From NCBI RefSeq assembly GCF_004331915.1, contig NZ_CP036528.1, forward strand, positions 1,378,567 to 1,442,566: DNA of 64,000 bases, in the 5' to 3' direction. How positions within the stretch are numbered: position 1 is the stretch's first letter; the number at the start of each line of letters is the position of its first letter. The translations under genes were made by a program, and so were the position numbers. Of this stretch, positions 53,844-55,634 are shown piece after piece. Origin of the DNA: Ureibacillus thermophilus. GTDB taxonomy: Bacteria; Bacillota; Bacilli; Bacillales_A; Planococcaceae. Below the pieces are notes generated by a model. It worked only from the letters and a program-made list of their open reading frames with translations. It made no database searches and had not been told where the DNA came from.

Positions 53844-53931
53844 GGCAGGACCATTTTGGATGCCTTTGTTTGCGGACTGACAGAAGCAAACGAAAGATGA
53901 TGATGATAATTTGAAAGGAGAAGGATCATTT

Positions 53932-54903
53932 ATGCTACGTTCAATGTACTCTGCGATTTCAGGTGTGCGTAACCACCAAACAAAATTAGATGTAATTGGG
54001 AACAATATTTCCAATGTGAATACACATGGATTTAAGAAAAGCAGAACGATATTTAAGGAAATGGTTTCACAAAATATAGGCAGTGCTTCAGCCGCTACTG
54101 CAACTCGAGGCGGTGTCAACCCAAAACAAGTGGGATTAGGATCTACAATGGCTGCTATTGATACAATTCACTCAACAGGTTCCTTGCAATCCACTGCTCG
54201 CACCCTTGACTTAGCGATTTCAGGGGATGGCTATTTTATGGTGGCGGATAAAGCAACTGGGACTGGTGTTGGAGGTTCTAGTTTTGCAAGTGTTTTATAT
54301 ACGAGAGCAGGAAACTTCTATATGGATAAAGATGGATATCTTGTAAACGCTGAGGGGAAATATTTGGTTGGTGTTGCACCAGAAAAAGTTAATTCGACTA
54401 CTGCTAGTACTGATACTGCTTATCCTTTAGCTAAAGATGTAAAAATGAAAAATGATTCGAGTGATTTATCACCACAAAACCCAACAACTTGGGCATCACC
54501 AATAGATTCAGGTGCGACAACAGTTTATGCACCAATTCGAATCCCGACGGATGCTACTGAAATGAGTATCGGCCAAGATGGTACGGTAACATTTGTAGAT
54601 GCCAATGGAGAATTAAGATGGGCCGGGCAAATTGTATTAGCTAAATTCCCTAACCCAGGTGGTTTGCAAAAATCAGGTAGCAACTATTATACTGAAACAT
54701 CGAACTCAGGAAGCCCTTACACGCAAGTTGGTACGGTAGCAGGTATCGGTTCTGTTGAATCCGGCTTCCTTGAAATGTCAAATGTGGACCTATCAGAAGA
54801 GTTTACGGAAATGATTGTGGCACAACGCGGCTTCCAAGCAAATACCCGCATAATTACAACATCTGACCAAATTTTAGAAGAACTTGTGAACTTAAAACGC
54901 TAA
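53932..54903 (+). CDS. flgE: Flagellar hook protein FlgE
   Basis: 323 residues from ATG 53932 (gaaaggag site). The N-terminus MLRSMYSAISGVRNHQTKLDVIGNNISNVNTHGFKKSRTIF is the rod/hook signature, and the C-terminus (EEFTEMIVAQRGFQANTRIITTSDQILEELVNLKR) the matching coiled-coil partner. It is longer than B. subtilis FlgE (264 residues), the extra length lying in the middle, surface-exposed region rich in Ser, Thr and Asp. It forms the flexible hook. Confidence 0.95.
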   Translation: MLRSMYSAISGVRNHQTKLDVIGNNISNVNTHGFKKSRTIFKEMVSQNIGSASAATATRGGVNPKQVGLGSTMAAIDTIHSTGSLQSTARTLDLAISGDGYFMVADKATGTGVGGSSFASVLYTRAGNFYMDKDGYLVNAEGKYLVGVAPEKVNSTTASTDTAYPLAKDVKMKNDSSDLSPQNPTTWASPIDSGATTVYAPIRIPTDATEMSIGQDGTVTFVDANGELRWAGQIVLAKFPNPGGLQKSGSNYYTETSNSGSPYTQVGTVAGIGSVESGFLEMSNVDLSEEFTEMIVAQRGFQANTRIITTSDQILEELVNLKR

Positions 54904-54959
54904 TGATTCTAATTACCTATTTATATAATAGGATGATTATTGGAATGTAAAGGAGGGTC

Positions 54960-54984
54960 GGGCCGGCTCTTTCCTACCCGGCCC
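54960..54984 (+). promoter_or_regulatory. GC-rich hairpin between the ribosome site and start codon of swrD/flbD
   Basis: GGGCCGG (54960-54966) pairs with CCGGCCC (54978-54984) around an 11-base loop. The aaaggagg site at 54949-54956 is 35 bases from the ATG at 54992; folding the hairpin would leave about 10. No T run follows, so it is not an ordinary terminator. Confidence 0.7.
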
Positions 54985-54991
54985 TATTTCA

Positions 54992-55216
54992 ATGATTCAA
55001 TTAACCAAGTTAAATGGCAAAACTTTTTCAGTGAATGCACTATACATAGAAACGGTCGAATCTTTTCCGGATACGACCATTACACTGACGAATGGGCGTA
55101 AATTTATAGTAAAAGAATCGGAAGAAGAGGTAAGGAGAAAAGTGACGGATTATTACCGCACAATTCAAGTCCTTTCTAACCCCCATCTACGAGGTGACGA
55201 AGAAAATGAAGAATAA
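54992..55216 (+). CDS. swrD: FlbD-family flagellar protein (SwrD)
   Basis: 74 residues: MIQLTKLNGKTFSVNALYIETVESFPDTTITLTNGRKFIVKES, the FlbD/YlzI pattern. In B. subtilis SwrD raises flagellar motor power for swarming. There is no close ribosome site before the ATG; the only good one lies beyond the hairpin at 54960-54984. Its end overlaps the start of fliL by 11 bases. Confidence 0.88.
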   Translation: MIQLTKLNGKTFSVNALYIETVESFPDTTITLTNGRKFIVKESEEEVRRKVTDYYRTIQVLSNPHLRGDEENEE

Positions 55217-55634
55217 TAAATTATTGACGGTAATGCTGATTATATTGGTATCCATTACGCTAATCGGGGTTGTCCTTTTTGTTGTCATCACTCAAATGAA
55301 TAAACAATCGTCAACCCTTGAACCAAGTATTGATGATATTCTAGAGTCAAGTGTAGATATCCCTGAACTCACGACAAATTTAGCGGATGGACAATTTATT
55401 CGAATCGAATTGAAAATCCAAACAGATAGCAAAAAGGCAGCGGAAGAACTAACAAAACGCGACTTCCAAACTAAAAATATTATTATAGAAGAACTTGCTG
55501 AAATGACTGAAGAAAACTTAAAAGGAAAAGAAGGAATTATTCTTTTAGAAAACACCATTAAAGCCCGATTAAATGAATTGATGCAAGAGGGTGAAGTGCA
55601 ACAAGTATATATTACCTCCTACATCATTCAGTAA
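55206..55634 (+). CDS. fliL: Flagellar basal body-associated protein FliL
   Basis: 142 residues from ATG 55206 with a gaggtga site. One N-terminal membrane helix (LLTVMLIILVSITLIGVVLFVVI) is followed by an extracellular domain with FIRIELKIQTDSKKAAEEL and the C-terminal LNELMQEGEVQQVYITSYIIQ. FliL supports the stator units of the motor. It begins within the last codons of swrD. Confidence 0.94.
   Translation: MKNNKLLTVMLIILVSITLIGVVLFVVITQMNKQSSTLEPSIDDILESSVDIPELTTNLADGQFIRIELKIQTDSKKAAEELTKRDFQTKNIIIEELAEMTEENLKGKEGIILLENTIKARLNELMQEGEVQQVYITSYIIQ

Follow-up and report, generated by a model that had tools for sequence, protein, structure and literature searches.

The window (the whole stretch of DNA that we analysed, 64,000 nucleotides of the Ureibacillus thermophilus chromosome) carries on its forward strand the gene swrD, downstream of a gene named flgE by the earlier note. 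The open reading frame of the latter extends from position 53911 to 54903, with its stop codon at 54901-54903, and the true start of the gene may lie further in. The swrD frame (54992-55216) encodes 74 amino acids of the FlbD family, matching the profile PF06289 at 92 bits for a cut-off of 24.7; this profile also matches in a control genome named B. subtilis. The 88 nt between the two genes include one strong Shine-Dalgarno sequence (SD), AAAGGAGG at 54949-54956, whose pairing with the anti-SD is calculated at -10.4 kcal/mol. Its core, GGAGG at 54952-54956, is separated by 35 nt from the swrD ATG at 54992, confirming the position and the excessive distance from the start codon that had been reported for it. 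No proximal SD was found before swrD in this leader. We rejected the use of an alternative start near the SD, since the sequence between the SD and the ATG has no ATG, GTG or TTG.

This interval contains a hairpin with a 5' arm GGGCCGG (54960-54966), an 11-nt loop (54967-54977) and a 3' arm CCGGCCC (54978-54984), followed by a 7-nt tail, TATTTCA (54985-54991), that reaches the start codon. In this pairing, which we call register B, the SD is free, and the folded stem leaves 3 nt (GTC) on one side and 7 nt (TATTTCA) on the other, that is, 10 nt. The earlier note had placed a 7-bp all-GC stem at exactly these positions and regarded it as conspicuous. It is indeed the sole perfect 7-bp all-GC hairpin (loop 3-20) of the whole window, which has 38.6% GC. 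Two other pairings are predicted on the same strand. In register A (54954-54985), positions 54954-54962, including part of the SD core, pair with 54977-54985, and this register, not register B, is the lowest-energy fold of the leader. A possible outer helix (54935-54997), with only partial conservation, joins 54935-54946 to 54986-54997 and would pair the start codon. The 91-nt leader as a whole folds with a z score of -2.18 relative to shuffled sequences, of which 5 in 200 fold equally well.

The arrangement is rare in the part of the genome that we sampled. We searched 464 kb, comprising the window and 20 stretches of 20 kb, for a far SD, a hairpin and a restored spacing, and only 2 of the 490 open reading frames passed, swrD being the clear one; chance passes amounted to 7 in 5232 internal start codons. 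Among the remaining frames, 307 have a normal SD and 181 have neither arrangement, many of which may be spurious. The second frame to pass (L215:15070-16023, reverse strand) has an SD 44 nt away, an effective spacing of 7, and a stem that is imperfect and less stable (-9.9 kcal/mol). With two candidates in 490 frames, we rejected the idea that such sites are a general feature of this genome.

Spacing and position of the hairpin in related genomes

Leaders were collected from the best 80 of 437 named swrD loci, among which the closest were those of Ureibacillus, and from further genomes. A first set, made up of 162 distinct leaders, included 116 with a distal SD and an intervening structure; in the others, the SD was normal in 38 cases, weak in 3 and undetected in 5. 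One of the 116, from the long-loop species L006, was misparsed and is omitted from the counts on 115 leaders or loci given below. The addition of the genus Bacillus and of one further genus raised the set to 197 distinct leaders, of which 135 are bridged only (a distant SD and a hairpin before the start, with no proximal SD), 34 have only a proximal SD, 9 have both and 19 have neither; these are not counts of independent events, because the leaders have a common ancestry and were retrieved through the similarity of their SwrD proteins. The leaders with both have a proximal SD, with the hairpin or a chance fold further upstream. Those with neither include two with long loops (L006 and L068), two borderline bridged ones (L170 and L245), seven of the genus g8, in which the hairpin has decayed or disappeared and no more than a 4-base GGAG stands close to the start codon, and eight misfits (L158, L167, L176, L177, L178, L184, L185 and L238).

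The SD of the 135 bridged leaders lies at a linear distance of 36.6 ± 4.1 nt from the ATG, mostly 30-46 nt, and at an effective distance of 9.3 ± 2.0 nt once the hairpin is discounted, with 109 of them at 8-11 nt. In the 34 leaders whose only SD is proximal, the corresponding spacing is 8.2 ± 2.5 nt. In the first set, all 116 rows have a stem that starts 0-5 nt past the SD core, in 101 of them its end is separated from the ATG by 6-9 nt, and the stability of the segment between SD and ATG was matched by none of 100 dinucleotide shuffles in 70 of the 116.

The bridged form was found in 12 of the 33 sampled families of the class and is lacking in the other 21, many of the 33 being represented by one to three leaders. 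Considering the leaders assigned to families, each family is uniformly bridged or uniformly not, except that of the window, which has 10 bridged and 2 normal leaders, as well as 5 that duplicate other rows. One of the genomes (G309) encodes an FlhF that matches PDB entry 2px0 at 100% over 280 residues and, given the organism that we take to be the source of this structure, we infer that it is B. subtilis 168. Its swrD leader, GTTAAGGAGGGAGGGGAGGCGAGTAATCGCTTCTCCGCTGTTTTATG, consists of an SD, a 10-bp hairpin, 8 nt and the ATG.

Some observations made along the survey concern other leaders. Families without a bridge (L141, L144, L155, L157, L169 and L193) often have in the gap a hairpin that precedes a normal proximal SD and has a purine-rich, SD-like 5' arm; this hairpin could be a forerunner of the bridge or a separate element. 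In family f16 (L167 and L177) no SD was detected and the last bases of the upstream frame are shared with the swrD ATG (GCTGATG), which suggests translational coupling instead of a bridge. The leader of L109, a genome titled Arthrobacter beigongshangensis, resembles those of Sporosarcina, and its label or assembly is probably wrong. Finally, the swrD match of L022, a genome of the Ureibacillus group, was reported with one in-frame TGA, possibly because the gene is broken or because the match runs past its stop.

A flgE homologue was identified by tblastn upstream of swrD in all 115 bridged loci examined. In these loci, the SD core lies between -1 and 887 nt from the flgE stop (standard deviation of 99), whereas the distance from the stem to the ATG has a standard deviation of 1.8 nt. 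The hairpin is thus anchored to the start of swrD, not to the stop of flgE, and we rejected its identification as a 3'-end element of flgE. The extra sequence of long gaps sits upstream of the SD (e.g. in L036, L017, L043, L052, L061 and L069) or inside the hairpin loop (L033 and L068). In L036 and L017, some 120-130 nt of partly palindromic extra sequence abut the SD on its 5' side and look like one inserted repeat family.

These positions bear on whether the hairpin serves translation at all. It occupies an intergenic gap of an operon, downstream of a gene for an abundant structural protein, and the frequent gap hairpins of non-bridged families stand upstream of normal SDs, so it might be a terminator, an attenuator, a processing site or a protector of the 3' end of the flgE message. 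Yet its position follows the start of swrD, and such roles predict neither the constant remainder of 8-11 nt nor the missing proximal SD in the 135 leaders, which makes them quite improbable. An intrinsic terminator or attenuator was rejected, because no U run directly follows the stem of the window (the tail being TATTTCA) and only 9 of 115 leaders have TTTT after it.

Changes in the length of the hairpin provide natural experiments. In U. manganicus (L033), a 177-nt loop puts the SD 201 nt from the ATG with an effective spacing of 10, the flanks of the stem being 3 and 7 nt long, like those of the window, and the SwrD frame of 73 aa being open. In P. psychrodurans (L068), where the frame is also open, a 56-nt loop puts the SD 77 nt away with an effective spacing of 9. 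Both stem arms are intact in the two species. Losses are seen in g8, a genus of the window's family whose 28 distinct leaders include 14 bridged ones, 6 with a proximal SD and 8 with neither. Leader L244 reads AGAGGAGGCTTA, hairpin, AATCGATATG, with an effective spacing of 12; L242 and L243, with the sequence AGAGGAGGCTTAGCAAATCGATATG, have lost the hairpin, and the same SD stands in them 14 nt from the ATG, to be compared with an effective spacing of 14 in L145. L248 and L249, with the SD at 13, look like similar hairpin losses, and in L255-L257, also devoid of the hairpin, a proximal GGGGUGA is present at 9. Among the 8 g8 leaders with neither arrangement, a strong distant SD devoid of any stem was not seen, except in L245, which retains the distal SD AGAGGGGG beside a decayed stem.

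One may also regard the hairpin as a brake or a spacer, with swrD being reached by coupling, either through ribosomes that terminate on flgE or through standby 30S subunits that slide or reload. Standby loading and sliding have been described for E. coli (PMC3936740), and in 11 of the 115 bridged loci the flgE stop lies at most 3 nt from the SD core. In many others the stop precedes the SD by 20 to several hundred nt, and sliding leaves unexplained the constant effective spacing and the long loops with conserved arms. We thus deem this explanation improbable.

Pairing of the stem and its alternative register

The 135 bridged leaders have 63 different 7-nt 5' arms and, at all seven stem positions, 5 or 6 standard pair types, which demonstrates diversity and is no test of pairing, because the pairs were taken from each leader's own fold. 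Alignments were compared with shuffled ones for this purpose. In the genus Bacillus (A3, 14 rows), 90.0% of the cells are paired, against 82.8% in shuffles, and the covariation score is 0.388 against 0.260, neither value being reached in 500 shuffles; the 3 pairs changed on both sides were matched by 28 of the 500. The alignment of the window's family and its neighbours (A1, 73 rows) varies little, because the sequence is highly conserved, and it includes three Kurthia rows (L053, L054 and L056) whose 3' arm seems to be misaligned and which are still counted. Register B is paired there in 94.8% of cells (4/500 shuffles), with both-side changes in 4 of 7 pairs (2/500) and a modest covariation score that 50 of 500 shuffles reach. 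Register A is paired in 92.4% (7/500), with both-side changes in 4 of 9 pairs (6/500) and a covariation reached by 2 of 500, and RNAalifold chooses a variant of it. These values appear to support the two registers about equally. A count between nearest neighbours was unfavourable, since of the 119 pairs that had changed 51 could still form and 68 could not, and is given little weight because many neighbours are near-identical and because variable apical pairs were included. The compensatory changes to which the earlier note had looked are supported by covariation in Bacillus, modestly so in the window's family, and are not favoured by the nearest-neighbour count.

Might the stem be recognized by a protein or respond to temperature? 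The motif GGGUCGGGCCGG is highly conserved in the window's family, as expected of such an element, but the stem sequence is not conserved outside it, as the diversity of arms attests, and the stem is predicted to stay unmelted at growth temperature. We find this explanation highly improbable. The stability of the window stem is predicted at -10.7 kcal/mol at 55 °C and -5.5 kcal/mol at 80 °C, and the stem is predicted to be folded at 80 °C and above both in the window species and in the presumed B. subtilis. The same arms are found in U. thermosphaericus, whose name is that of a thermophile. The proposal that heat melts the stem and switches swrD off is thus unlikely, and an RNA thermometer was rejected because the predicted stem does not melt within the growth range. 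Rfam models searched over 54700-55300 with E values up to 10 gave three chance matches well below their gathering scores, none on the hairpin, and we rejected the assignment to a known riboswitch or Rfam leader. The switch envisaged by the earlier note was not borne out; a switch, if there is one, would rather act by occlusion of the SD in register A, a pairing absent from that note.

Such a switch would be an addition to the bridge. In the window's family, the 5' side nearly repeats itself (GGGUC GGGCC), and the same 3' arm can therefore pair in two ways, either with part of the SD (closed, with low swrD expression) or with the next repeat (open, with the SD free and the gap bridged), so that the active state would be the folded spacer. 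The balance between the two might be shifted by the ribosome, by a protein or by some condition, and the start codon might also be paired in some species. Both registers are highly paired in A1. For the window leader, register A is predicted with a probability of 0.999 at 37 °C and 0.978 at 55 °C in the free state, and register B with one of 1.0 once the SD is constrained to be unpaired. Over 115 leaders, the release of the SD octamer has a median cost of 4.0 kcal/mol, with 0 in several of them and up to 10.1 kcal/mol in some Psychrobacillus, which equals the gain from SD pairing. Yet this cost is only 0-2 kcal/mol in many leaders outside the window's family (e.g. L102, L103, L106, L119 and L124), and SD occlusion is consequently not part of the common design. 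Furthermore, G-rich arms beside a G-rich SD readily give such overlaps, and we know of no sensor for a change of register. Register A may thus be a brake, a switch, or a by-product of this composition. Control by SD occlusion is possible in the window's family on the basis of these models, and we advance the complete two-register switch tentatively, as a rather unlikely refinement. If true, it would set the level of SwrD, and hence the motor power available for swarming, at translation. To our knowledge no such bridged switch has been described in bacterial chromosomes, and none was found in the literature that we searched.

Two observations concern the start codon. The motif TCATTG, just upstream of the SD, is complementary to CAATGA at the swrD start and occurs in 20 of the 35 loci with that tail and in none of the 80 others, a pattern that may reflect shared descent. 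A helix closing over the start codon is kept here as a side observation, because it reaches p ≤ 0.05 relative to shuffles in only 4 of 115 loci.

A probable hairpin-bridged ribosome-binding site

Our results suggest, with a probability of about 0.85, that swrD has a hairpin-bridged ribosome-binding site (also called accommodated or split), whether or not it is regulated. The 30S subunit would pair with the distant SD while the stable hairpin just 3' of it remains folded and looped out, and the start codon, some 7 nt past the stem, would come to the P site with an effective spacing of about 10 nt, which is normal. The folded leader would be the translatable one, the unfolded leader leaving 35 nt, and the hairpin would by default be a constitutive structural spacer rather than a sensor. 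Three of the traits that one expects of an accommodated site are found here: a far SD with no usable proximal one, in the window and in 135 of 197 leaders; a stable structure that restores the spacing, to 10 nt in the window and to 8-11 nt in 109 of 135 leaders; and evolutionary support for this structure, which exists in Bacillus and is modest in the window's family. The restoration of a normal spacing is strongly supported at the level of sequence. This part of the earlier interpretation, that folding leaves about 10 bases, is upheld by the constant effective spacing, the covariation in Bacillus, the loop insertions and the hairpin deletions, and that interpretation as a whole is partly supported. 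By analogy with known systems, the ribosome presumably accepts the folded hairpin, and we infer that the translation of swrD depends on it.

The gene swrD is needed for swarming in B. subtilis 168. If the bridge operates as we propose, a trick reviewed for two genes of phage T4 would be widespread and long-kept in bacterial chromosomes, including that of the presumed B. subtilis 168. The way in which a ribosome accommodates a hairpin that stays folded ahead of the start codon, past the SD, becomes directly testable, and the long loops, the hairpin deletions and the replacements by new proximal SDs provide a natural test series. Gene finders and calculators of ribosome-binding strength that assume a linear SD distance would misjudge bridged genes.

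A literature search, made mostly outside subscription papers, found no report of a hairpin-bridged site for swrD, and no mention of flagellar genes was found in the available part of PMC11109978. Among other structured leaders, SD-sequestering hairpins and RNA thermometers resemble swrD in having a structured ribosome-binding site, and register A does pair part of the SD. They differ in that their opening turns translation on, whereas a fully opened swrD leader leaves the SD 35 nt away, and the swrD stem, unlike thermometers, is predicted to be too stable to melt at growth temperature. In E. coli thrS, a hairpin separates an upstream ribosome-binding segment from a normally spaced SD, whereas that of swrD separates the SD from the start codon. 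The split site of thrS is similar to the one proposed here in that the ribosome accommodates the hairpin without unfolding it, according to the accessible part of PMC3936740.

The closest precedents are in phage T4. According to the available sections of PMC3014915, an RNA structure lying between the SD and the AUG shortens the spacing in gene 38 from 22 to 5 nt and in gene 25 from 27 to 11 nt, mutations that destabilise these structures lower initiation, and the form of gene 25 is confined to close T-even phages. As far as these sections describe them, both genes resemble swrD in having an SD that is too distant and an intervening RNA structure that shortens the spacing, and gene 25 also in its intercistronic position. 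The same sections present the T4 cases as phage genes backed by mutational and probing data, whereas swrD is a chromosomal gene whose bridge is deduced from sequence comparison. It further differs from them by its longer linear distances (mostly 30-46 nt), by its presence in 12 of 33 families and by the register that overlaps the SD in one family. The T4 split sites were reportedly studied by Nivinskas in 1999 and by Malys and Nivinskas in 2009. This kind of site is thus already known, and what appears new, as far as we have seen, is a chromosomal and widely conserved case.
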